Of a stretch of DNA of 49,009 bases, positions 25,835 to 48,935 are shown one piece after another. Source of the stretch: Deltaproteobacteria bacterium (GTDB taxonomy: Bacteria > Desulfobacterota > Syntrophia > Syntrophales > JACQWR01); the NCBI GenBank assembly GCA_026388415.1, contig JAPLJV010000039.1, positions 1 to 49,009 of the forward strand. Reading direction: 5' to 3'. Each line of letters starts with the position of its first letter. Position 1 is the stretch's first letter. Below the pieces are notes generated by a model. The model saw only the letters and a program-made list of their open reading frames with translations, did no database searches and was not told the origin of the DNA. The translations under genes were made by a program, and so were the position numbers.

Positions 25835-25852
25835 GGCGACGCATGCGTCGCC
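25835..25852. repeat. 18-bp perfect palindrome (GGCGACGCATGCGTCGCC)
   Basis: A perfect self-complementary sequence in the gap between meaB and the NTPase-kinase gene, followed by CCTACCCTA. I recognise closely similar sites as frequent intergenic elements in other deltaproteobacterial and clostridial genomes. Between two divergent genes it is unlikely to be a terminator. Confidence 0.7.
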
Positions 25853-25908: not shown

Positions 25909-25958
25909 CCGGGGCCAAGAGGCGTCAACATTTTTTTAATTAGGAGTGTGAGCTACCG

Positions 25959-27608
25959 GTGCCGTTTAACGCCATTCCCGCAGCAGACTTTCTGAACAGG
26001 GAAAATGAGCTTGATTATCTGCAAGGCCTGTCCGCATTAAAGGAAAAAGCCCTGGGCGGCGACGTGTTCCTGTCAGGCGCCAGGGGGATGGGGAAGACTG
26101 AGCTTCTAAAACAGCTTTACCGCCCGCTCTTTTGGGAAGACCAGGTGACGCCATTTTACTATTCCTTCAAGACAGCGAACCTGAAGGGTACCTATTTTGC
26201 CAGGGACTATTTCACCAGATTTGTCAGACAATACATCTCCTGTGTAAAAAAGGACCCTTCCCTCGCCGACAATGCGGCTGAGCCGCTTGAGCGCCTTATG
26301 CCGGCGATATCTTCGCTCGGCTTATACTGGCTGAGCGATTGCATCGAAGATTTTCAGAAATATGTTCACAATAATGATTTTTACTGGCAGATGGTCGCTG
26401 CCATATCAGCCCCGGTTGTCGCCGCTCAAAAAAGCGGCAAGCCGGTTATCGTGATGCTGGACGACTTTGACGCGGCTTTACACCTCTATGAAACCAGCCT
26501 CGACGATGCGCACAATCTGATCAGCCTCTTCGCGGAATCAATGCGCAACAACCGCTGCCCGCACGTTATCACCGGCTCGGCGGAAGCGCTGGAGACTATT
26601 TTCAGCGACCATTCCCTCCTCGGGAAGACGGAAAAAATGCGCCTCGGTCCGCTTCCGGAAGACCTGGCCAAAAGGCTTTTCAGATCTCATCTTGCCAACC
26701 TGAAGATAACCTGCGCGCCGGGCGTGCAACTCCAGTTTTTGGATATATTGAAGGGAAACCCGCTTTATATCAGGAATATCGCCAAAGCTGCCGCAAAAAT
26801 GCAGAAACAGGAGCTAACTGAAAAGGACCTGATCGAGTGTTACAGTTTTGAAGTTTCCGCCGGTGAAACCGCATTTTACTGGTCTTCCGTATTCAGCCGT
26901 TATGTCGGGAATGCGGCCGGAAGAAAGGCGATGCTTAAACTCCTCATGCACGCTGTTGAAAACGGGGGTATCGCCGACGGTGAAAGGCTCGCGATCGTAT
27001 CCGGATTGGGCCGGACCGAAGCGGAAGCGATTATCGCCGTAATGGAGGCGGCAGGTATCATCCATAATCAGGAGGCGGTGCTCCAGGATCTCATCCGCTG
27101 TCTTTACGGGCAGGAAATAGAGGGCAGAGATGCCAACTATACCCGGGAAAAGATAGCAGAGAAATACATTGCGGCCCGGGAAGAATCATGCTTTGAGCTG
27201 GTGATTCCGATGAGTTCGAACGCAGAGCTCGTGGTTGCCAAGGCGGTGGAACAGATCGGCGTCAACATTAATCTCGATTCCGAGTTCCTGAATTATTTAC
27301 AACTGGCGCTGATTGAGGTCTGCATCAATGCCATGGAACACAGCGGGAGTTACGAAAAAAAGGTCTTTCTTAAATTCATCACGAGATCAGACAAACTTGA
27401 GATAATAATAGAGAGCTCCGGCAGGCAGTTCTCTGCCGATTCGCTCCCGGAAGTTCCCGTGGCAGAGAAGCTGCGGCTGGGCGTGAAGAGGGGCTGGGGA
27501 TTAAAACTTGTTTACTCGATTATGGACAGCGTAAAGATCGAGAGGGTAAACGATAGGACCAGAGTGATACTGACCAAAGAAATTAAAGACAAAGAGGTGC
27601 TTAAATGA
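25959..27608 (+). CDS. P-loop NTPase fused to an RsbW-like HATPase (anti-sigma/serine kinase) domain
   Basis: A 549-residue protein starting with GTG; AGGAG lies 12-13 bases upstream, so the exact start is uncertain. The N-terminal half is an AAA/STAND-like NTPase: Walker A GARGMGKT (40-47), Walker B VIVMLDDFD (163-171), a sensor-like ITGS (204-207), then a helical and winged-helix-like part (about 235-385). The C-terminal 135 residues are a GHKL ATPase of the RsbW/SpoIIAB kind: N-box EVCINAMEHSG (453-463) with the metal Asn, and glycine box GVKRGWGLKLV (508-518). The usual DxGxG box is changed to ESSGR near 485-489. RsbW-like kinases phosphorylate a STAS partner; one is encoded next, with a four-base overlap. 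I know of no named system with this fusion, and the role is inferred. Confidence 0.8.
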   Translation: MPFNAIPAADFLNRENELDYLQGLSALKEKALGGDVFLSGARGMGKTELLKQLYRPLFWEDQVTPFYYSFKTANLKGTYFARDYFTRFVRQYISCVKKDPSLADNAAEPLERLMPAISSLGLYWLSDCIEDFQKYVHNNDFYWQMVAAISAPVVAAQKSGKPVIVMLDDFDAALHLYETSLDDAHNLISLFAESMRNNRCPHVITGSAEALETIFSDHSLLGKTEKMRLGPLPEDLAKRLFRSHLANLKITCAPGVQLQFLDILKGNPLYIRNIAKAAAKMQKQELTEKDLIECYSFEVSAGETAFYWSSVFSRYVGNAAGRKAMLKLLMHAVENGGIADGERLAIVSGLGRTEAEAIIAVMEAAGIIHNQEAVLQDLIRCLYGQEIEGRDANYTREKIAEKYIAAREESCFELVIPMSSNAELVVAKAVEQIGVNINLDSEFLNYLQLALIEVCINAMEHSGSYEKKVFLKFITRSDKLEIIIESSGRQFSADSLPEVPVAEKLRLGVKRGWGLKLVYSIMDSVKIERVNDRTRVILTKEIKDKEVLK

Positions 27609-27967
27609 AAACGATGCAGTTCAGCGTTACGTCGAGACTCGAAGGAGACACTGCGGTCATTTACCCCAAGGGATACTTAAACAATCTCTCGGGCGAAAGT
27701 ATGGTCATCGAATGCGGCGCTTACATTGACAAGGGAATAACGAAGATCGTGGTTAATTTCAGCGAAACAGATCTGATCAATTCCATCGGCATATCGCTCC
27801 TGCTGCAGATCATTGAAGATCTAAGGAATATCAAAGGCACGATTTGCTGTACGAACATGTCCAAGTTCCTCCAGGACACCTTCGAGATGCTCGGTCTTAT
27901 CCAATATATGCGGGTTTTCCCGGTCGAGAGCGATGCCTTAAAATACCTGAACACTGGAAAAGTATGA
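27605..27967 (+). CDS. STAS-domain protein (anti-sigma-factor-antagonist type)
   Basis: A 120-residue single-domain protein. The fold is clear from DTAVIYPKGYLNNLSG, TKIVVNFSETDLINSIGISLLLQI and FLQDTFEMLGLIQYMRVFPVESDALKYL. In RsbV/SpoIIAA the loop reads DSSG or DSTG and its serine is phosphorylated by the cognate kinase. Here the loop is N-S-I-G, so one serine is kept but its neighbours differ. The start ATG overlaps the stop of the NTPase-kinase gene (ATGA) and its own stop overlaps the next ATG, so the three proteins are likely made in fixed ratio. It is the natural substrate of the upstream HATPase domain and a possible switch for the HD-GYP protein. Confidence 0.88.
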   Translation: MKTMQFSVTSRLEGDTAVIYPKGYLNNLSGESMVIECGAYIDKGITKIVVNFSETDLINSIGISLLLQIIEDLRNIKGTICCTNMSKFLQDTFEMLGLIQYMRVFPVESDALKYLNTGKV

Positions 27968-29175
27968 GCACAGAACTAAAAAAAGCGCTGTATAACATAT
28001 CCGCCCTGGTAGATCTTGGGGAGGCCATAACGTCTGTAAATGATTTTCAGGAAAAGATACAGTCAACGCTTTATGTAATAACCGGCACATTTCTGGCGAA
28101 CAAGGGCGCGATACTTTCTTATGACAAAGCGACAAACAGGCTAACTACTTTGATACAAAAGGGTTTCGCGCCGGCTGACCTGGCCCGCGTCAATCCCGAA
28201 GAGCTGATATCGCTCGGTAAAAACGAACCCTGCGTCATCGGCTATGACCCCGTCCCCACCGTTGCCGGGGCAGAGATACTGACTCCCCTTTGGGTAAGAG
28301 ATGACTTTATCGGCGTTCTGCTGCTTTCGGGCAAGTTAACAGCCGGCCCTTATACCCTGGAAGAACTGGAACTGATCAATGTTATCGCCAACCAGATCGC
28401 GATCGTTATCAACAACCACGCCCTTTTCATGGATCTTTCGGACAAACTCGCTGAAAATCGCCGCCTCTACGAAGAGATGCGGCACATCTACCACGGCACG
28501 CTCCAGGCCTTTGCCGCAGCGATTGACGCCAAAGACGTTTATACGCAAAACCACTCCCACCGGGTCGCGAAATATTCAGCCGCCATTGCGCGGGAACTCG
28601 GCTGGAACGAGCACGATATAGAAGGCATCTACGTTGCCGGGTATCTCCACGACGTCGGCAAGTTGGCTATCAGTAACGAACTGTTGAACAAGGTAACACC
28701 CTTTACGCCGGAGGAATTTGCAGAAATAAGAAAACACTCAACCCTGTCCCACAACATCACGTCAAAGATAAAATTCCCCTGGAAGAACGTCCAGGATATA
28801 GTCTGGCACCACCACGAACGTCTCGACGGACACGGCTATCCAGAGGAGCTGGCGGAGGGTTCCCTGAGCGACGGAGTCAGAATTCTCACGCTTGCCGATT
28901 CGTTCGACGCGATGACTTCCCAGCGCCCCTACCGGAAAAGGATGTCTGTACAATCTGCCCTTGGTGAATTAAAAAGATGTCTGTTAAGTCAGTTTGACAA
29001 CAAAATCATGCTCGTATTCTGCAAAGTTCTGGAGAAGGAAATAAAGGGCGAGCAGCCGGAGCCGGATATTCTGCCCCACCTTGACAGTGACTCGGACCTC
29101 TCGGTCATTTCCTCCATGCTGGAAGCGATCATACAGGAACTCTCGACGCAGCGAGACCTTTGCACAACCACATAA
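27964..29175 (+). CDS. GAF-HD-GYP protein, probable cyclic-di-GMP phosphodiesterase
   Basis: A 403-residue cytoplasmic protein beginning at the ATG that overlaps the STAS stop. Residues about 15-152 form a GAF domain (QSTLYVITGTFLANKGAILSYD...IGVLLLSGK...INVIANQIAIVINN). A short coiled coil (152-175) leads to an HD-GYP domain (about 176-360) with HSHR at 197-200, the HD pair at 229-230 in YLHDVGK, HHHERLDGHGYP at 282-293 and the DSFDAMTSQRPYR stretch. All metal-binding residues typical of active HD-GYP enzymes seem to be there. Such enzymes hydrolyse cyclic-di-GMP (or cGAMP) to linear products or GMP. A 40-residue C-terminal tail of no known domain follows. The gene context suggests control by the STAS/kinase pair. 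Confidence 0.9.
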   Translation: MSTELKKALYNISALVDLGEAITSVNDFQEKIQSTLYVITGTFLANKGAILSYDKATNRLTTLIQKGFAPADLARVNPEELISLGKNEPCVIGYDPVPTVAGAEILTPLWVRDDFIGVLLLSGKLTAGPYTLEELELINVIANQIAIVINNHALFMDLSDKLAENRRLYEEMRHIYHGTLQAFAAAIDAKDVYTQNHSHRVAKYSAAIARELGWNEHDIEGIYVAGYLHDVGKLAISNELLNKVTPFTPEEFAEIRKHSTLSHNITSKIKFPWKNVQDIVWHHHERLDGHGYPEELAEGSLSDGVRILTLADSFDAMTSQRPYRKRMSVQSALGELKRCLLSQFDNKIMLVFCKVLEKEIKGEQPEPDILPHLDSDSDLSVISSMLEAIIQELSTQRDLCTTT

Positions 29176-29188
29176 AACCAGCAATTAT

Positions 29189-29260
29189 GTCATACCGGCG
29201 CAGGCCGGTATCCAGTATTATCAACCACTTTCTGGATTCCGGTTTTCACCGGAATGACGA
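29189..29260. repeat. Two-hairpin dispersed repeat, copy 1
   Basis: Two palindromes in tandem: ATACCGGC...GCCGGTAT, then ATTCCGG-TTTTCA-CCGGAAT, ending in GACGA. It lies right after the HD-GYP gene and may act as a bidirectional terminator between it and the convergent small gene. Other copies: 34075-34181, 36565-36631 (inverted), 37338-37417, 38195-38261 and the degenerate one at 10915-11020. Confidence 0.85.
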
Positions 29261-38480: not shown

Positions 38481-40109
38481 ATGAGAAAACGATCCCTGCC
38501 ATCAATTTTATGTTTATGCGCTTTGTTAATATTTACAGCTTTCACCGCTTTTGCCGCCCCGGAGACGCCGCCCGGAGAGAAGCCCGACGGCATCCCCCGT
38601 TTTGATATCAAGAGTTACCAGGTGGATGGCAATACGCTTCTGGCCGCTGAAAACCTTGATTTGATCCTGGCGCCCTTTACCGGAACGGGCAGAGATTTCG
38701 GCACTGTGCAGGAAGCCTTGGATGCGCTGGAAAAGGCCTACCGCGACGAAGGCTTTTCCATGGTCTCGGTGGCGCTGCCGGAACAGGGATTAGCCGGCGG
38801 TGTCGTGCGACTGAAGGTCAACGAAAACCGCCTGGGGAAAATCGCCATAGAGGGAAACCGCTATTTTGATCAGGTCAACATTCGCCGGAGCCTGCCGGGG
38901 CTGAACCAGGGGCAGACCCCCAATCTCGATGCCGTCTCCCGCAGTCTCAGGATTGCCAATGAAAACCCTGCCAAAAAGGTCAATCTGCAATTACAAAACA
39001 GCGACAAGGCAAATGAAATTGACGCCAATATCGCCGTTAAAGACGATTCACCCTGGAAAATAGGCTTCACGGCCGATAACACAGGCGACAGGCAGACAGG
39101 CAATTCCCGCCTGGGTGTCCTCCTGCAGCACGCCAACCTATTCAACCGGGATCATCTCCTGACGTTACAAAATATCTGGTCTCCCGAGAAGGCGGACCAG
39201 GTCAGCATTTTCAGCCTTGGCTATCGGATCCCTTTATATTCGCCGGGGGCATCCATAGACGTGATCGGCGCTTATTCCAATGTGAATTCCGGCGCCATCA
39301 CCGCCGCCACCTCGACCATGAACGTCAGCGGTAAAGGTACAATCCTGGGGCTACGTTACAACCAGAATCTCACGCGGATCGGAAGCTACGAGCATAAGCT
39401 GACTCTGGCCCTGGATTATCGCGCTTATGAAAACAATGTGGATTTATCGGGGATACCGTGGGGCTATAATGTCACGGTCCATCCCGTCAGCCTGACCTAC
39501 GCCGGGACGTTTACTACGGATAAAATCAATGCCGGCTTTTATCTGACGGATTCGCAGAATCTGCAGGGCAATTGGGATAACCGGGACACCAACGCGGATA
39601 TTGAAAATGCTCGTAAAAGCGTCGGCGCTCCGCGGGCTTATAATATTTTCCGTTACGGGGCGAATCTGTCCTTAGCCTTGGGTGCGGACTGGCAGGCGCG
39701 GGCGCTCGTTAACGGGCAATATACCGAAGACCCACTGGTGCCGGGTGAATGGTATGGGATCGGCGGCGCCAACACTGTCCGGGGTTTTTCGGAGCGGGCG
39801 TTTTCCAAAGATCGGGGATATTCAGGGAGTTTTGAGATATATACCCCCGACCTTAGCAAACCGTTGGGCGTGAAGGCCTTTCAATCCCGTTTACTGATGT
39901 TTTACGACCGGGGTTATGTTTCCCAAATAGACCCTTTGCCTGGCGATATTGTCAGTTATGAAATTGCCAGCTTTGGTCCCGGCCTGCGCATCACCGATGG
40001 CAAAAACTTATCCATCTCGGCCGATTGCGGCTTCGTGCTCGATCCGCCGGATGAAAGCACCACCCGCTGGAGCAGTGCCTGGCATTTGACGGCCAGTGTA
40101 ATGTTTTAA
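38481..40109 (+). CDS. Two-partner secretion outer-membrane transporter (TpsB, ShlB/FhaC/HecB family)
   Basis: A 542-residue protein with a signal peptide (residues 1-25, ending AFAAP). POTRA 1 lies at about 40-115 (FDIKSYQVDGNTLL...LPEQGLAGGVVRLKVNE) and POTRA 2 at about 117-185 (LGKIAIEGNRYFDQVNIRRSLPGL). The rest is a 16-strand beta barrel ending in the C-terminal aromatic signature HLTASVMF. The Omp85-superfamily motif VRGF is at TVRGFSERAFSKDRGY. It recognises the TPS domain of the TpsA exoprotein and carries it through the outer membrane. The tpsA gene follows after 222 bases of hairpin repeats. No N-terminal plug helix is evident between the signal peptide and POTRA 1. Confidence 0.94.
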   Translation: MRKRSLPSILCLCALLIFTAFTAFAAPETPPGEKPDGIPRFDIKSYQVDGNTLLAAENLDLILAPFTGTGRDFGTVQEALDALEKAYRDEGFSMVSVALPEQGLAGGVVRLKVNENRLGKIAIEGNRYFDQVNIRRSLPGLNQGQTPNLDAVSRSLRIANENPAKKVNLQLQNSDKANEIDANIAVKDDSPWKIGFTADNTGDRQTGNSRLGVLLQHANLFNRDHLLTLQNIWSPEKADQVSIFSLGYRIPLYSPGASIDVIGAYSNVNSGAITAATSTMNVSGKGTILGLRYNQNLTRIGSYEHKLTLALDYRAYENNVDLSGIPWGYNVTVHPVSLTYAGTFTTDKINAGFYLTDSQNLQGNWDNRDTNADIENARKSVGAPRAYNIFRYGANLSLALGADWQARALVNGQYTEDPLVPGEWYGIGGANTVRGFSERAFSKDRGYSGSFEIYTPDLSKPLGVKAFQSRLLMFYDRGYVSQIDPLPGDIVSYEIASFGPGLRITDGKNLSISADCGFVLDPPDESTTRWSSAWHLTASVMF

Positions 40110-40132
40110 GGATTAATGAAAATCTCCCCTAA

Positions 40133-40217
40133 CCCCTCTTTGCCAAAGAGGGGAATAATATAGTCCCCCTTCAGAAAAGGGGAGAGGCTACATAATTTCC
40201 CCCTTTAGAAAAGGGGG
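40133..40217. repeat. C-rich hairpin repeats between tpsB and tpsA
   Basis: CCCCTCTTTG-CC-AAAGAGGGG (40133-40153), CCCCCTT-CAGA-AAAGGGG (40164-40182) and CCCCCTTT-AGA-AAAGGGGG (40199-40217). They may reduce read-through from tpsB into tpsA or be neutral insertions. Confidence 0.8.
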
Positions 40218-40331
40218 AGTAAGGGGGATTTGATGCATTTTCAAGTGCAACCATGGATGCCCGACTTAAGCATCCGGGCATGACAAAGGTTTTGCAATGA
40301 GCATAATTGAGTAATACCGAAGGAGCTGGAT

Positions 40332-43300
40332 ATGAACACAAATCCGTGCAGAAAAAAGAGGCTTTTCATGATCGCCCACAAAATCGTTTCTATCATCACC
40401 CTGATTTTCTTCAGCGCGGGCACTGTCTTCGCCTTACCGACCGGGCAGCAGGTGGTAAACGGCCAGGCCAGCTTCATCACCCAGAGCAACAACCTCACGG
40501 TCACCAACAGCCCCAATGCAATCATCAACTGGCAGGGCTTTTCGATCAATAACAATGAAGCCGTCCGCTTTATGCAACAATCCAGCGCCAGCTCCGTCCT
40601 GAATCGCGTCACCGGCCAGGACCCCTCCCGGATTCTCGGCCTGCTGCAATCCAACGGCAAGGTTTTTCTCATCAACCCCAACGGCATCCTCTTCGGTCAA
40701 GGCGCCCGGATTGACGTAAACGGCCTCTTCGCCTCAACGCTTGCCATCAGCAATCAGGATTTCTTAGCGGGTAAGTTCAACTTTTCCGCTGGAGCTATCG
40801 CCGGATCAATCCAGAACCAGGGTACCATCACGACACCCGCAGGCGGCAAGGTGTACCTGATCGCCCCGGATATCGAAAACAGCGGGATTATCAATACCCC
40901 GCAGGGCGAAGTGCTCCTCGCAGCAGGCCATAGCGTCCAGTTGATAGATTCCCTCAACCCCGACATCGCAGTCGTCGTGAGCGCGCCTACGAACAAGGCA
41001 GTAAACCTCGGCCAGATCGTCGCCCAAAGCGGCAAGGTGGGGATTTACGGTGGGCTCATATTGCAGAAGGGTATTGTCAATGCCGACAGCGCGGTAGTCG
41101 GAGAGGACGGAAAGATATTCTTAAAGGCGACGAAAGACGTAACACTTGATGCCGGCGGCACAACCAGCGCCAACGGCCCTCAGGGCGGGCAGATAAAAAT
41201 TCAGAGCCAATCGGGAACGACGCTGGTATCCGGCACAGTCACCGCCACCGCCAATGACGGCAAAGGCGGGAATATCCAGATCCTCGGCTACCATGTCGGA
41301 TTGATTGATAGCGCCCGGGTAGATTCCTCCGGCAGAACCGGCGGTGGAACCGTGCTCATCGGCGGCGATTATCAGGGTAAAAACCCTGCCGTCCAGAACG
41401 CCGCGGCGACCTATCTCGGCATGGATGCCGTAATCAAGGCCGATGCGACGGAGACCGGCGACGGCGGCAAGGTCATCGTCTGGGCAGATAATACCGCCCG
41501 GGCCTATGGAAACATCAGTGCCAGGGGAGGTTTGCTGTCAGGGGACGGCGGTTTTATCGAGGTATCGGGGAAGCAATACCTTGATTATCAGGGGGTGGCC
41601 GATCTTCGGGCGCCAAGGGGGAAAGCAGGCACGCTGCTGCTTGACCCGACGGACATCTATATTGACGAAACACAGCCGGAAAGCGGCCTATCTCATAACG
41701 GCGCTACCCCTCCTCCATATTTTTATGACTCTACCGTTAGCGGGGCCAGTACCTCGTATATTAAACCCTCCACGATCGTTGGCAACTTGGGCATCGGCAA
41801 TGTAACGATTACGACGGCAGGTGGAACAGTGACGCCGCCAAATGGTGGTGACATTACCGTATCAAGTCCGATAACTTGGAACGCCAACAAGCTGACCCTC
41901 ACCGCGGTCAATGACATCAATATCAACGCTGTGATGACCGCCAAAGACACGGCCAGCCTCGATCTTCAACCAGGCAGCAGCAAGGTCAATATCGGCTTCA
42001 ACCCTGACGGCTCTTTCAAGGGACGGGTTGATTTCTTCCAAGCTGATGGCATTACGCCACATTCTGGCATCGGTTTTCTCACCATCAACGGTACTGGCTA
42101 CACCGTCATCAACAGCTTGGGCGCGGCGGCGGATGCGACGACAGCACCGGGCACGGCCACTTTGCAAGGTATGGCGGCGGCGGCTAATCCATCCGGCCAC
42201 TATGCCCTCGGCAGCAACATTGACGCCATAGCGACATCAACCTGGAATTCCAACGGCAGCGGATATTACGGCTTCATGCCTGTCGGCGACAGTGGTTATC
42301 CCTTCGACGGCACTTTTGACGGGCTTGGCCACACGATCACCGGCCTCTATATCAATCGCCCCTTAACTGACAATGTGGGTCTTTTCGGATACCACAGAGC
42401 TGCCGTGACTATTCGGAATGTCGGGCTGGTAAACGTGAATATTACCGGCCAAGACAACATCGGCGGCTTGGTGGGTTATAATGATAATGGAAGCATCGCC
42501 AATTCCTACAGCACGGGTACGGTGAGCGGCGCCTACTATGTCGGCGGCTTGGTGGGTTATAATGATAATGGAAGCATCAATAATTCCTACAGCACTGGCA
42601 ATATAACCGGCAGCTTTGCCGTTGCCGGCGGGTTGGTAGGCTACAATGACTATGGCACCATTACCAATTCCCACAGTGCTGGTGAAGTAACTGGCAGTTA
42701 TGATGTCGGTGGACTGGTGGGGTACAACGCTGGTTCCATTAGCAATTCTTACAGCACTGTGAATGTAAGTGGTATGGGTACAGGCGAAGATTATGTCGGC
42801 GGCCTCGCAGGCGCAAGCGAGGGCAGTATCAGTAATTCCAACAGCGGCGGCAACGTAAGCAGCACGGGTTATTATGTCGGCGGCCTTGTGGGAAAGATTT
42901 ATTCAGGAAGCAGCATCAGCAATTCTTACAGCACGGGGGCGGTAACAAGCACCGGCAGTTCCTACACCTACAGCACGGAAGGGGGGGGGCTGGTTACCGT
43001 AATCGGCAGTTATGGCGGTGGCCTAGTGGGATCTAATGATTATGGCACCATCAGCAATTCTTACAGCACAGGTGCGGTAACCGGGGTCTCCTATGTCGGC
43101 GGTCTGGTAGGGTATAATGCTTCCGGCTCCTCCATCAGCGATTCTTACAACGAGGGGACAGTAACGGGAACCGGCGATTATGCCGGCGGCCTAGTGGGGT
43201 ATAGTTATGGCAACATCAGCAATTCCTATAACACGGGAGCGGTAAATGGCAGCACTAATGTCGGCGGCCTGGTGGGGTATAATGATGGCACCATCAGCAA

Positions 43301-46300
43301 TTCTCATTACGACATCGACAACGTCTTGATCAACGATGGCCATTATGTAACTGAAGGCGGACTCTATGCGTCGCAATACCTGAACTGGAAAAACAGCACC
43401 TACGCAACGCTTGAAATCACCAGCTACAGCGCCAGCCTTCCATTGGTCAGCGGCTACTACACCATCTCCGGCACCCCGGGACTGCAAGACATGCTGGGTT
43501 TCGTGGACAACCCGAGCTACAAGTTCCGACTGACGACCAGCATTGATCTGGCCACCTTGCCCGGCTGGTACATTCCGGTTTTTGCGGCCGGAGCGGAGTT
43601 TGACGGCGCCGGGTCCACCTTGTACAATCTGTCGGTAAACCAGCCTTTCAATGACAACATCGGATTCATCGGGAGGTCGCAATTTGGCAGCTTATTGACC
43701 GGCGTGGAGCTGACCAACGTCAGCGTGACGGGACGGAACAACGTCGGCGGCTTGGTGGGGAAAAATTTGAGCATCATCACCAGTTCCTATAGCACAGGCA
43801 CGGTAAGCGGCACCAACTACGTGGGCGGGCTGGCGGGGTATAATAGCGTTTATGGCAGCATCAGCACTTCCTACAGTGAGGGTGCGGTAAGCGGCAGTAC
43901 TAATGTTGGCGGGCTGGTGGGGTATAATGCTTCCGGCGGCGAAATCAGCTATTCTTACAACGGGGGAGCAGTAACGGGAACGGGCGGTTATGTCGGCGGC
44001 CTGGTGGGGTATAGTTATGGCAACATCAGCAATTCCCACAACACGGGTGCGGTAAGCGGCAGTACTAATGTTGGCGGGCTGGTGGGGTATAATTATGGTG
44101 GTTATGGTGGTTATGGTGGTTATGGCGGCATCAGCAATTCCTACAGCACGGGGGCGGTGATCGGCAGTACTAATGTCGGCGGCCTAGTGGGGTGGAATGA
44201 TGGCAGAATCAGCAACTCTCACTACGACATCGACAACGTCTCTATCAACGATGGCCATTATGTAACCGAAGGCGGGCTCTATGCGTCGCAATACCAGAAA
44301 TGGGTTGACAGCAGCTACGCATCACTGGACATCAACAACTACCCTTCACTGTCTGCCGCTGGTTATGGCGGCTACACCATCAGCGGCACCGATGGACTCA
44401 AGGACATGCTGGGTTTCTTGGACAACCCGAGCTACACGTTCCAACTGACGGATAACATTGATCTGACCGGCTTGCCAGACTGGCACCTACCGGTTTTTAA
44501 CGGCGCCTTTGTCGGCACCGGGGTCACCTTGTCCAATCTGTCGGTGAACCAGCCTTTCAATGACAACATCGGATTCATCGGGCGGTTGAATTCCGGCAGC
44601 ACCTTGACCGGCGTGGGACTGACCAATGTCAGCGTGACGGGACGAAACAACGTCGGCGGTCTGGTGGGGTATAATTATGGCAACATCAGCAATTCCCACA
44701 ACACGGGTGCGGTAAGCGGCAGTTCTAATGTTGGCGGGCTGGTGGGGTATAATTATGGCAGCATCAGCGATTCTTACAACACAGGGGCAGTAACGGGAAC
44801 CGGCGATTATGCCGGCGGCCTGGTGGGTAATAATTTCGGCACCATCGGCAATTCCTACAACACTGGGGCGGTAAGCGGCAGTACTAATGTCGGCGGCCTG
44901 GCGGGATGGAATAATGGCACCATTATCAACTCTCACTACGACATCGACAACGTCACTATCAACGATGGCCATCATGTAACCGAAGGCGGGCTCTATAGTT
45001 CGCAATACGCGGCCTGGTTCCCATCAAAGACGCTGCCCTCCATCGACTACTACTTCGCGCTAGACGCGCTAGCCGGTGATGGCTACTACACCATCGTCAA
45101 CCCCCAGGGACTCAAGGACATGCTGGGTTTCGTGGACGCTGGCTACAGCTTCCGACTGACGGGAAACGTTGATCTGACCAGCTTGCCCGGCTGGCACCTA
45201 CCGGTTTTTAACGGCGCCTTTGACGGCTCCGGGTTCACCTTGGCTAATCTGTCGGTAAACCAGCCTTTCAATAACAACATCGGATTCGTCGGGCGGTTGG
45301 ATTCCGGCAGCACCTTAACCGGCGTAGGGCTGACCAATGTCAGCGTGACGGGACTTAACAACGTCGGCGGTCTGGTAGGGTATAATGCAGGCGCCATCAC
45401 CAGTTCCTACAGCATGGGTGCAGTAACCGGGATATCCTCTGTCGGCGGTCTGGCAGGGTCTAATGACGGCACTATAAGTAACTCCTACAGCGCAGTCACG
45501 GTTACCGGAGACTACTCCGTCGGCGGTTTGGTGGGGGTTAATGATGGCAGCATCAGCGGCAATTCCTACAGCACGGGCACGGTAAGCGGCATCGAATACG
45601 TGGGTGGGTTGGTGGGGGAGAATTATAGCAACATCGCCAATTCCTACAGCACCGGGGCGGTAACCGTAGCCGGCAGTTATGGCGGCGGCCTGGTGGGATC
45701 TAATGATTATGGCACCATCAGCAATTCTTACAGCACCGGGGCGGTAACCGTGGCCGGCAGTTATGGCGGCGGTCTGGTGGGGTATAATTATGGTTATGGT
45801 GAATATTACAGCATAGAAAATTCCTACAGCACGGGGGCGGTAACCGTAACCGGCAGTTATGGCGGCGGACTGGTGGGGTGGAATGAGAGCTATGGCATCA
45901 GCAACTCCTTCTGGGATAAGACAACAGCAGTTGATGTGGTGAATGGCATCGGATATGATGCTGATGTTTCAGGGCCCAGCAACTCCAACGCCACAGGTCT
46001 GACGACCGCCCAAATGATGCAACCGTCAAACTTCGAGGGGTTTGACTTCACCCCCAGTACAGGTGTCTGGTGGATGTCCAGCGGTAACACGCGCCCCTTC
46101 CTGCGCTCGGAGTGGAGCGCGAATATTACCAATGCGCACCAGTTGCAGTTGATGGCGATGGACCTCAGCGCGAGCTACACCCTGGCTGGCAACATTGATA
46201 TGAGTGAACTTAAGAAGGCGCCCGGAATGTGGAATACCTCAACCGGCTTCGTGCCTGTCGGGAACAACGTTGACCCCTTTACCGGCACCTTCGACGGCCT

Positions 46301-48935
46301 TGGCCACACCATCACCGGCTTGTACATCAACCGCCCGGCTGAGTACTATGTCGGACTATTCGGATACCACGCCCCTATTCTTACTACCATTAAGAATGTT
46401 GGGTTGGTCGATGTAGATATCACAGGCGACACCAATGTCGGCGGACTAGTCGGTTATAATTATGGTTATTATGGTTCTGCTAACGTCAGCAATTCTTACA
46501 GCACGGGGGCCGTTATCGGCAAAACGAACGTCGGCGGGCTGGTCGGATATAATTATGGTTACGCTGATATGTATGATGGTTCTGCTAACATCAGCAATTC
46601 TTACAGTACGGGGGCCGTTACCGGCATCACGAACGTCGGCGGGTTGGTCGGATATAATTATGGTTATGGTTATGGTGGTTACGGTGGTTACGGAATTGCT
46701 GACATCAGCAATTCCTACAGCACGGGTGCGGTAACCTTAACCGGCAGTTATGGCGGCGGCCTGGTGGGGTCTAACAATGGCGGCGCCATCACCAGCAGCT
46801 ATTGGGACACAGAAACCTCCGGATGGTCAACCAGCGCAGGCGGTACAGGCCTGACGACGGCCCAGATGATGCAGCCTTCAAATCTCGGCGGTTCGAATCC
46901 CGAGTCTCCCTGGGGTATCGTGGAGGGCATATCCTATCCCTACCTCACATGGCAGTTCAGCGGCACGCCACAGATTATCTCCGGCAAGGTTGATGTGACC
47001 ACCGGAGCGGGAAAGACAATTCAGACAGCGGTCAATGGGTCGCCTTTTGCGGCGGTTTCAACAGGAGCGAACGGCTTTTATTACTTTGCCCTTCCCGGCA
47101 ATTCTGTTGCCAGCGGTAGCGCGCTTCTGGCATATATTTCCGGAGATACCGTGAAGAGCGCTTCAGTCTATCTCTCCAGCGGGACACATATCACCGATCT
47201 CTCCCTTGCCTCCAACACCGTAACCGCCAGCGGCGGGGCAATCTCCAACACCACGTTCGGGACCGCCAAGGGAGCTCTTGATTCCACCGATATCCCTTAC
47301 ACTTTTTCCGGCAGCAACCTGACGCTGAATAGCGGCTTTAGTTTCCTGACTCCGGCGGGGTTGAGCTATTCCCTTGACGGCAATATAACAACGACGAATG
47401 GATCGCAGACTTACAACGGCCCGGTAACGCTTGCGTCGAACGCGGTGCTGACAAACGCCGGCACAGGCGGCAATATCAGCTTCGGCGGTGCAGTGACGGG
47501 AACAGGCAGCAACCTTACCCTGAACACCACCGGCACGGTCAGCCAGACGGCGCCGATTACGGTGGCAGGGCTGGAACTGCTGGGAGCAGGCGGGACATAC
47601 AATCTGACTAATGCGGGTAACGCCGTAACGACGTTGGCAGGAAATACGGGCACGGTTGATTTCACAAACAGCGCCGGAATTGATATTGGAACGGTAAATA
47701 CAGCCGGCCTTGCGACCAGTGGAGATCTTACGCTGAACAGCGGCGGGGCGATCACTCAATCTGCGCTTCTTCAGGTATCAGGCGCCGCGACGTTTAATGC
47801 CGGTTCAGGAAATGACATCACATTAACGAATGCAGCCAACAACTTCAGCAGCGTCGGGATTACGAGCGGAAATAACGTCTCCCTGACAGACACCGACGCC
47901 CTTGCCCTGAACACCTCCAACGTGAGCGGGGCGCTGGGCGTGACTACAGGCGGCAATATCACCCAGAACGGCGCCCTTGCAGTTACCGGCGCAGCCACCT
48001 TTGACGCCGGTTCAGGCAATGACATCACCCTGACGAATGCCGGCAACAACTTCACCAGCGTTGGAATCACGAGCGGAAGGAACGTATCCCTGACAGACAC
48101 GGGCGCCCTTGCCCTGAACACCTCGACCGTGAGCAACAGCCTGAGCGCGACGGCGGAAGGCGATATAACGTTGAACGGGCTTGTCACTGCCGGTACGGGC
48201 GAAGGTACGGGGGATGTAACCCTAAACTCCTCCGGCGGCGCGATTATCAACGGCAGGGGCAGTTTGACAAGTATCTCTGCAGAATCTCTCTTCGCCTATG
48301 CAGCCAACGGCATCGGCAGCAGCGATCCGCGTGATCCTCTCATGACCGAAGTGCACAATATCACTGCCGTTAATACCACCTCCAACAACATCGACATTGA
48401 TAACACCGGCGTCCTCAACGTAAGCGTTCTCAGCAACGTCGGAACAGGAAACGTCCTTCTCCAAAATATCGGTGGCATCACCACCTATACAGACACCATT
48501 ACCTCATCATGGGGCACTGTTTCCATGACCGCTCACAGCCCCCTTACGATCGGCTCCGGCGGCGTTTCAGCTTACGGCAGCATATCATTGGCGGCCTCAG
48601 GTTCTAGTAACCTTACAATCGCTGGAAACATAGCGTCATCAAATGGGAATATCAGCCTGATGGCGCCCGGTGGCAGTATTGCCGTCAGCCCCGGTATCAG
48701 CTTGAGTGCCCCGAATGGCACGGTTACGCTGAATACCAGTACCAACGATTTGTCGGTTGTCGGCAATAACACGGCTACCGACAATACGGTATCTTCACTG
48801 ATAACGGCGATGGGAACCATAAAGTCGGATGAAAGTGGCGATGATGAAGATGCACGCAAGAAGAAAAATAAGGAAGGCGGAGAGCAAAAGACCGATGAAA
48901 AGAAAATGGACGACGACAAGAAGTATTGTAATTAG
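40332..48935 (+). CDS. Giant two-partner secretion exoprotein (TpsA, filamentous-haemagglutinin type) with 31 GLUG repeats
   Basis: A 2867-residue secreted protein; the ATG follows AAGGAGCTGGAT. An extended signal peptide (residues about 1-35, ending TVFA-LP) leads to the TPS domain (about 36-300) with ITQSNNLTVTNSPNAIINWQGFSI, NRVTGQDPSRILG and the NPNGILFG signature near residue 116. Residues about 700-2170 carry GLUG repeats (VGGLVGYN...GxISNSYSTGxVxG); I count 31 by eye. They are interrupted by three long near-identical modules (HYDIDNV...NLSVNQPF...LTNVSVTG). From about 2220 on, adhesin-type beta repeats follow, two of them a near-exact 208-base tandem pair. The tail is highly charged and ends KKYCN. 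It is probably a long surface beta helix used for adhesion or aggregation; the partner is unknown. Confidence 0.93.
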   Translation: MNTNPCRKKRLFMIAHKIVSIITLIFFSAGTVFALPTGQQVVNGQASFITQSNNLTVTNSPNAIINWQGFSINNNEAVRFMQQSSASSVLNRVTGQDPSRILGLLQSNGKVFLINPNGILFGQGARIDVNGLFASTLAISNQDFLAGKFNFSAGAIAGSIQNQGTITTPAGGKVYLIAPDIENSGIINTPQGEVLLAAGHSVQLIDSLNPDIAVVVSAPTNKAVNLGQIVAQSGKVGIYGGLILQKGIVNADSAVVGEDGKIFLKATKDVTLDAGGTTSANGPQGGQIKIQSQSGTTLVSGTVTATANDGKGGNIQILGYHVGLIDSARVDSSGRTGGGTVLIGGDYQGKNPAVQNAAATYLGMDAVIKADATETGDGGKVIVWADNTARAYGNISARGGLLSGDGGFIEVSGKQYLDYQGVADLRAPRGKAGTLLLDPTDIYIDETQPESGLSHNGATPPPYFYDSTVSGASTSYIKPSTIVGNLGIGNVTITTAGGTVTPPNGGDITVSSPITWNANKLTLTAVNDININAVMTAKDTASLDLQPGSSKVNIGFNPDGSFKGRVDFFQADGITPHSGIGFLTINGTGYTVINSLGAAADATTAPGTATLQGMAAAANPSGHYALGSNIDAIATSTWNSNGSGYYGFMPVGDSGYPFDGTFDGLGHTITGLYINRPLTDNVGLFGYHRAAVTIRNVGLVNVNITGQDNIGGLVGYNDNGSIANSYSTGTVSGAYYVGGLVGYNDNGSINNSYSTGNITGSFAVAGGLVGYNDYGTITNSHSAGEVTGSYDVGGLVGYNAGSISNSYSTVNVSGMGTGEDYVGGLAGASEGSISNSNSGGNVSSTGYYVGGLVGKIYSGSSISNSYSTGAVTSTGSSYTYSTEGGGLVTVIGSYGGGLVGSNDYGTISNSYSTGAVTGVSYVGGLVGYNASGSSISDSYNEGTVTGTGDYAGGLVGYSYGNISNSYNTGAVNGSTNVGGLVGYNDGTISNSHYDIDNVLINDGHYVTEGGLYASQYLNWKNSTYATLEITSYSASLPLVSGYYTISGTPGLQDMLGFVDNPSYKFRLTTSIDLATLPGWYIPVFAAGAEFDGAGSTLYNLSVNQPFNDNIGFIGRSQFGSLLTGVELTNVSVTGRNNVGGLVGKNLSIITSSYSTGTVSGTNYVGGLAGYNSVYGSISTSYSEGAVSGSTNVGGLVGYNASGGEISYSYNGGAVTGTGGYVGGLVGYSYGNISNSHNTGAVSGSTNVGGLVGYNYGGYGGYGGYGGISNSYSTGAVIGSTNVGGLVGWNDGRISNSHYDIDNVSINDGHYVTEGGLYASQYQKWVDSSYASLDINNYPSLSAAGYGGYTISGTDGLKDMLGFLDNPSYTFQLTDNIDLTGLPDWHLPVFNGAFVGTGVTLSNLSVNQPFNDNIGFIGRLNSGSTLTGVGLTNVSVTGRNNVGGLVGYNYGNISNSHNTGAVSGSSNVGGLVGYNYGSISDSYNTGAVTGTGDYAGGLVGNNFGTIGNSYNTGAVSGSTNVGGLAGWNNGTIINSHYDIDNVTINDGHHVTEGGLYSSQYAAWFPSKTLPSIDYYFALDALAGDGYYTIVNPQGLKDMLGFVDAGYSFRLTGNVDLTSLPGWHLPVFNGAFDGSGFTLANLSVNQPFNNNIGFVGRLDSGSTLTGVGLTNVSVTGLNNVGGLVGYNAGAITSSYSMGAVTGISSVGGLAGSNDGTISNSYSAVTVTGDYSVGGLVGVNDGSISGNSYSTGTVSGIEYVGGLVGENYSNIANSYSTGAVTVAGSYGGGLVGSNDYGTISNSYSTGAVTVAGSYGGGLVGYNYGYGEYYSIENSYSTGAVTVTGSYGGGLVGWNESYGISNSFWDKTTAVDVVNGIGYDADVSGPSNSNATGLTTAQMMQPSNFEGFDFTPSTGVWWMSSGNTRPFLRSEWSANITNAHQLQLMAMDLSASYTLAGNIDMSELKKAPGMWNTSTGFVPVGNNVDPFTGTFDGLGHTITGLYINRPAEYYVGLFGYHAPILTTIKNVGLVDVDITGDTNVGGLVGYNYGYYGSANVSNSYSTGAVIGKTNVGGLVGYNYGYADMYDGSANISNSYSTGAVTGITNVGGLVGYNYGYGYGGYGGYGIADISNSYSTGAVTLTGSYGGGLVGSNNGGAITSSYWDTETSGWSTSAGGTGLTTAQMMQPSNLGGSNPESPWGIVEGISYPYLTWQFSGTPQIISGKVDVTTGAGKTIQTAVNGSPFAAVSTGANGFYYFALPGNSVASGSALLAYISGDTVKSASVYLSSGTHITDLSLASNTVTASGGAISNTTFGTAKGALDSTDIPYTFSGSNLTLNSGFSFLTPAGLSYSLDGNITTTNGSQTYNGPVTLASNAVLTNAGTGGNISFGGAVTGTGSNLTLNTTGTVSQTAPITVAGLELLGAGGTYNLTNAGNAVTTLAGNTGTVDFTNSAGIDIGTVNTAGLATSGDLTLNSGGAITQSALLQVSGAATFNAGSGNDITLTNAANNFSSVGITSGNNVSLTDTDALALNTSNVSGALGVTTGGNITQNGALAVTGAATFDAGSGNDITLTNAGNNFTSVGITSGRNVSLTDTGALALNTSTVSNSLSATAEGDITLNGLVTAGTGEGTGDVTLNSSGGAIINGRGSLTSISAESLFAYAANGIGSSDPRDPLMTEVHNITAVNTTSNNIDIDNTGVLNVSVLSNVGTGNVLLQNIGGITTYTDTITSSWGTVSMTAHSPLTIGSGGVSAYGSISLAASGSSNLTIAGNIASSNGNISLMAPGGSIAVSPGISLSAPNGTVTLNTSTNDLSVVGNNTATDNTVSSLITAMGTIKSDESGDDEDARKKKNKEGGEQKTDEKKMDDDKKYCN
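43301..45375 (+). repeat. Three long near-identical modules within tpsA
   Basis: Modules starting at about 43301, 44215 and 44929 each run for some 450 bases. Each opens with the same CTCAYTACGACATCGACAAC block, passes through an LKDMLGF..NPSY-type segment and closes with NLSVNQPFN-NIGF and LTGV-LTNVSVTG. They point to recent internal duplication. Confidence 0.85.
44099..44130 (+). repeat. Short tandem repeat GGTTATGGT in tpsA
   Basis: Three to four copies of GGTTATGGT coding for Gly-Tyr-Gly. A similar tract lies at about 46662-46691. Both are in frame multiples, so length change would keep the reading frame. Confidence 0.75.
47780..48140 (+). repeat. 208-base tandem repeat in the 3' part of tpsA
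   Basis: The unit starting GGCGCCGCGACG at 47780 recurs at 47988 as GGCGCAGCCACC; both encode GAATF-AGSGNDITLTNA-NNF-SVGITSG. The two copies are about 90 percent alike over the first 145 bases by eye. Confidence 0.8.

Follow-up and report, generated by a model that had tools for sequence, protein, structure and literature searches.

A three-gene module joining a STAND-like NTPase-HATPase fusion, a STAS protein and a GAF-HD-GYP protein as a candidate sigma-factor-free partner switch

We describe a module of three genes in a 49,009-nucleotide stretch of DNA (hereafter, the window; contig JAPLJV010000039.1 of GenBank assembly GCA_026388415.1) from a member of the Syntrophales. The module consists of three open reading frames on the forward strand (25959-29175) encoding a fusion of a P-loop NTPase with an RsbW-like HATPase domain, a STAS protein and a GAF-HD-GYP protein. 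The fusion gene (25959-27608; 549 amino acids) starts with GTG and is preceded at a distance of about 10 nucleotides by a Shine-Dalgarno-like AGGAG (25944-25948). The STAS gene (27605-27967; 120 amino acids) and the GAF-HD-GYP gene (27964-29175; 403 amino acids) each overlap the preceding gene by an ATGA. For the third gene the list of open reading frames gives an in-frame TTG at 27844; the ATG within the overlap is the start that aligns with relatives. A preliminary description, made from the sequence alone, had read the two overlaps as the mark of one coupled unit, and the order of the genes is indeed kept across relatives. A scan for promoters and terminators returned nothing informative.

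Recurrence of the gene order is far beyond chance. A contig collection was scanned with an alignment query restricted to two conserved motifs of the HATPase region, yielding 80 named loci, while a single-sequence scan of the same collection returned no matches. Among the 44 loci with a full-length fused gene and at least 2.5 kb of downstream sequence, STAS and HD-GYP profiles built in this analysis placed a STAS gene second in all 44 and a GAF-HD-GYP gene third in 42. The loci were retrieved without recourse to STAS or HD-GYP, so the linkage is real. This search also showed that the fusion is not unique but common to several phyla. By record title, carriers are members of Syntrophia, Nitrospirota, Nitrospinota, 'Deltaproteobacteria' and Rokubacteria, nearly all of them known just from metagenome-assembled genomes; no match lay on a plasmid. 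Within the order to which the window belongs, the fusion occurs in 8 of 155 genomes, the seven others being 70-79% identical and all keeping the three-gene order, and fusion matches were found in 29 of 395 genomes of the phylum, many of them to a longer form. The compact Syntrophia fusions nest within a Nitrospirota clade on the tree, a placement that suggests Syntrophia acquired them by transfer from a Thermodesulfovibrio-like source.

Pfam, predicted folds and motifs agree with the domains first assigned to all three proteins. The fusion matches ATPase_2 (5.9e-09) and AAA_16 (2.1e-08), both over cut-off, and HATPase_c_2 (1.2e-13). In the NTPase part (residues ~1-390), G40, G45, K46 and T47 of Walker A (GARGMGKT, residues 40-47; 26076-26099) and D168 of Walker B (MLDDFD, residues 166-171; 26454-26471) are invariant in 44 aligned proteins. 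An AlphaFold2 model of the fusion had a mean predicted local distance difference test score (pLDDT) of 83.5, and in a fold search its residues 4-380 aligned with 2fna (Z 24.2) and 2qen (Z 23.8), both archaeal ATPase_2 structures, and next with NLR and CED-4 cores (Z 17-19). As modelled, the NTPase core is STAND-like, with a P-loop core of the ATPase_2/NB-ARC/NACHT type, and shares with 2fna, 2qen, CED-4 and plant NLRs a helical and winged-helix part. A C-terminal repeat superstructure that serves as sensor is typical of STAND NTPases, if not universal. The fusion differs in having an RsbW-like partner at its C-terminus instead; Pfam, the model and the fold search gave no repeat sensor region, and only ~20 residues separate the NTPase core from the HATPase. 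We therefore call it STAND-like and not a full STAND receptor; the earlier comparison to STAND proteins stands for the core, and not for the threat or nutrient sensor proposed with it.

The longer fusions of 'Deltaproteobacteria' (L049 6189-8390, L095 5983-8184 and their kin) have an extra conserved region of ~190 residues between NTPase and HATPase, with the motif GFQNGRYDxGNEVVW and a mixed alpha/beta fold in the model. This region had no Pfam or PDB profile match, apart from short matches to de novo TIM barrels that were dismissed as chance. A remnant of a PD-(D/E)xK nuclease was considered by eye and set aside, with Pfam, the PDB profiles and the top of the whole-protein fold search speaking neither for it nor against it.

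The likeness of the core to NLR, CED-4 and Avs folds, together with its patchy presence in the order, would fit a role in anti-phage or abortive defence, with the NTPase detecting an invader and the HD-GYP enzyme acting as effector. We regard this as very improbable. PADLOC gave no meaningful match for the fusion or the STAS protein and its HD matches were to Cas3 HD domains, the flanks hold housekeeping genes, the repeat sensor region is missing and the companions of the module are signalling enzymes (GGDEF and PP2C, below).

The HATPase domain (residues ~410-543) is, by profile and predicted fold, of the RsbW/SpoIIAB type; in the fold search residues 410-543 of the model aligned with RsbW in the RsbV/RsbW complex 6m37 at Z 17.4 and a root-mean-square deviation of 1.8 A. 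Its N box (IEVCINAMEHS; 27312-27344) holds E453 and N457, presumed general base and Mg ligand, both invariant in the aligned proteins, and its G2 box (KRGWGL; 27486-27503) is kept. The second protein matches Pfam STAS (PF01740; 9.5e-10), and a profile of its family, which included one SpoIIAA sequence, matched SpoIIAA (1auz) at E 3e-35. Ser60 (NSIG; 27782-27784) occupies the SpoIIAA phosphoserine position, which is Ser or Thr in every relative and Thr in two only. The pair thus shares with SpoIIAB/SpoIIAA and RsbW/RsbV the HATPase and STAS folds, the N and G2 boxes and the phosphoserine position, and differs in its N-terminal NTPase, phosphodiesterase neighbour and altered G1 box and in having no linked sigma factor. 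On fold and family, a partner switch of the ordinary kind could be imagined, with an unlinked sigma factor as its target and the HD-GYP protein as independent passenger or sensor input, but we consider it improbable. The NCBIfam RsbW matches to the fusion fall below cut-off, and the curated RsbW/SpoIIAB cut-offs are not reached. No sigma factor gene was noticed in the module or the neighbourhoods read, although no model search was aimed at sigma factors, and the HD-GYP partner keeps its place in 42 of the 44 loci across several phyla.

The third protein matches Pfam HD_5 (1.2e-35) and GAF_3 (4.8e-06), and its HD-GYP motifs HDVGK (28648-28662), HHERLDGHGYP (HHHERLDGHGYP; 28807-28842) and RPYR are intact. 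The GAF of the third genes is specific: a profile built from it scored 107-249 bits in the HD-GYP proteins and 64-116 bits in the GAF-SpoIIE and GAF-GGDEF third genes that stand beside stand-alone HATPase-STAS pairs, compared with 28-44 bits for the GAF domains of PocR-GAF-GGDEF proteins of the same locus set. Such stand-alone pairs occur in other phyla and are followed by GAF-SpoIIE or GAF-GGDEF genes; one locus has a GAF-histidine kinase between STAS and HATPase. Eight loci of Sericytochromatia, Poribacteria and Marinimicrobia (L113, L123, L126, L133, L136, L139, L143 and L144) have a stand-alone HATPase-STAS pair and then GAF proteins; those checked have GGDEF or SpoIIE outputs. These loci may represent a wider family of STAS-to-GAF modules. 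Because the GAF domain is constant and the output variable, it is probably the GAF, and not the output domain, that the STAS protein addresses.

Two companions that accompany the module in relatives lie outside the view of the window and had been missed. A PocR-GAF-GGDEF gene with an intact GGDEF/GGEEF motif is directly upstream of the fusion in ~30 loci, which places a cyclase and a phosphodiesterase side by side and may couple the making and breakdown of one messenger. A specific PP2C phosphatase (E <= 1e-45) occurs in exactly five of the 155 genomes of the order, all of them carriers of the module, and always adjoins it, so that five of the seven order relatives have it (beyond the HD-GYP gene in four, before the fusion in one). 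The hypergeometric probability of this co-occurrence (8e-8) is inflated, as three of the five genomes belong to one genus, and is best read as three lineages from three families. PP2C motifs are intact in the module-linked phosphatases. In one genus a second HD-GYP protein, of the response-regulator type, adjoins the PP2C gene (L009 4455-5552, L010 5384-6481, L011 3615-4712). Several Syntrophia relatives carry, divergently upstream of the fusion, a gene for a protein of ~193-222 amino acids with C-terminal CxxC pairs (L009 10166-10747, L010 11009-11590, L013 11016-11684), the L009 copy of which had no Pfam match. In the window genome several other GGDEF proteins are encoded, the fusion is the sole over-threshold HATPase_c_2 protein and the STAS protein is the sole stand-alone one, the other STAS match lying within a 749-amino-acid frame; no second partner switch was therefore seen.

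Taken together, we propose, with a probability of about 0.55 and largely by analogy, that the module is a sigma-factor-free partner switch that sets the turnover of a cyclic dinucleotide, most likely cyclic di-GMP. The STAND-like NTPase would adopt a signal-dependent nucleotide state and so gate the C-terminal RsbW-like domain, which in one state would hold the STAS protein and probably phosphorylate Ser60, and in the other would let it go. The PP2C phosphatase, which adjoins the module in most Syntrophia relatives and would be encoded elsewhere in the window genome, would take the phosphate off again. Once free and unphosphorylated, the STAS protein would dock on the GAF at the N-terminus of the HD-GYP protein and switch the phosphodiesterase, most likely activating it in the way that SiaC activates SiaD.

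Three observations weigh against this proposal. The closest solved relatives of the HD-GYP domain in the PDB are V-cGAP3 (5z7c) and 4mcw. The former is a 3'3'-cyclic GMP-AMP (cGAMP) phosphodiesterase, so the substrate is not fixed as cyclic di-GMP. No PP2C gene adjoins the window module, and the sole candidate that turned up elsewhere in the genome has 35% identity and is unlinked, on another contig. Lastly, the G1 box (IESSGRQF; 27408-27431) is degenerate, with Ser486 at the position of the adenine-contacting Asp in alignment with SpoIIAB and relatives, even as the N and G2 boxes are kept. ATP binding by the HATPase may consequently be weak or absent, and kinase activity is doubtful. The earlier expectation that the STAS protein is simply the partner such a kinase would need overlooks this state of the G1 box.

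The G1 Asp is gone in 50 of 54 fused HATPases (Asn in 32, Ser in 16, Thr and Cys in one each), as is the second glycine; the four that retain it are of a separate type of 772-822 amino acids. It is present in all 22 complete stand-alone relatives and in SpoIIAB. On a tree of HATPase and STAS from which the G1 columns were left out, its loss needs one change, and the residue is never regained. The split between fused proteins without Asp and stand-alone proteins with it had been entertained as many independent cases; being one event, it is not counted as a repeated correlation. This residue contacts adenine, and VanS kinases with Asn in its place bind ATP weakly (PMC10017428); in SspH, a stand-alone HATPase, a D to A change at the site inactivates the protein (PMC9137472). 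Such a pattern, with both Walker motifs of the NTPase invariant, could mean that the switch has given up phosphorylation by ATP for another mechanism: the NTPase cycle would be the nucleotide on/off switch that decides capture or release, and the HATPase a nucleotide-altered or non-phosphorylating clamp on the STAS protein that gates the phosphodiesterase, and perhaps also the operon's cyclase where relatives have one, the STAS serine being kept for structure or binding. We hold this to be possible but doubtful. Invariant N-box Glu and Asn and a retained G2 box and STAS serine would be odd in a dead kinase, the PP2C goes with the module in Syntrophia whose fusions have lost the Asp, and Asn can still hydrogen-bond adenine, as in ThkA (cited in PMC10017428). 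VanS has likewise lost the G1 Asp and second Gly naturally and its GHKL domain still works (PMC10017428), although VanS is a histidine kinase with Asn at G1, and the window protein has Ser. With the N box and STAS serine position kept and Asn at G1 tolerated elsewhere, a verdict of 'dead kinase' was not adopted; the HATPase may still phosphorylate, may take another nucleotide or may just clamp the STAS protein.

The proposed switch has its nearest counterpart in SiaABCD of Pseudomonas aeruginosa, where binding of an unphosphorylated STAS-like protein activates a cyclase, an effect that the kinase blocks (PMC8457831, PMC7647112). As we propose for our module, SiaABCD comprises a kinase, a STAS-like substrate, a PP2C phosphatase and a cyclic-di-GMP enzyme, with no sigma factor, and is controlled through direct binding of the STAS-like protein. 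SiaB, however, lacks a fused NTPase, and SiaC belongs to the DUF1987 family and has Thr, not Ser, as phosphosite. Its target SiaD is bound at the stalk and is a GGDEF cyclase, not a GAF-HD-GYP phosphodiesterase. The module would thus work like SiaABCD without being a member, matching STAS (PF01740) and HD-GYP instead. STAS proteins also control cyclic-di-GMP enzymes in HsbA/HsbD of P. aeruginosa and BgrV/BgrR of Sinorhizobium (cited in PMC8457831), where the target is a cyclase and no NTPase-HATPase fusion is described. Sigma-free partner switches on cyclic-di-GMP enzymes are therefore already known, and the module is a variant of them. The belief that no system of this architecture had been described agrees with the literature searched, in which the gene set did not appear, although this is weak evidence, as most subscription papers were outside its coverage. 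Within that literature, the combination of a STAND-like fusion, an HD-GYP partner and an altered G1 box is new.

Other features of the window lie outside the module. A perfect palindrome, GGCGACGCATGCGTCGCC (25835-25852), in the gap that precedes the fusion gene is a repeat resembling a repetitive extragenic palindrome, with eight genomic copies at one mismatch or fewer and none for a control sequence. Just downstream of the HD-GYP gene is an imperfect 27-nucleotide inverted repeat (29189-29258) with a small CCGG hairpin within each arm, possibly a second dispersed repeat. Further downstream lies a two-partner secretion (TPS) pair (38481-48935), a ShlB/FhaC-type transporter (542 amino acids) followed by a TPS protein of 2867 amino acids that carries GLUG and DUF5649 repeats.

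If the proposed switch is correct, the module joins the switching of STAND-type NTPases, partner switching by RsbW and STAS proteins and the turnover of cyclic dinucleotides, which are usually studied separately, in carriers whose signalling is largely unstudied. It is a compact natural test of whether an RsbW-like domain can function after loss of its adenine-reading residue, with the Asp-keeping stand-alone relatives as controls. That one kind of GAF recurs on HD-GYP, GGDEF and SpoIIE outputs next to HATPase-STAS pairs suggests a rule of general reach, mostly unrecognised so far, by which STAS proteins address GAF-bearing enzymes.

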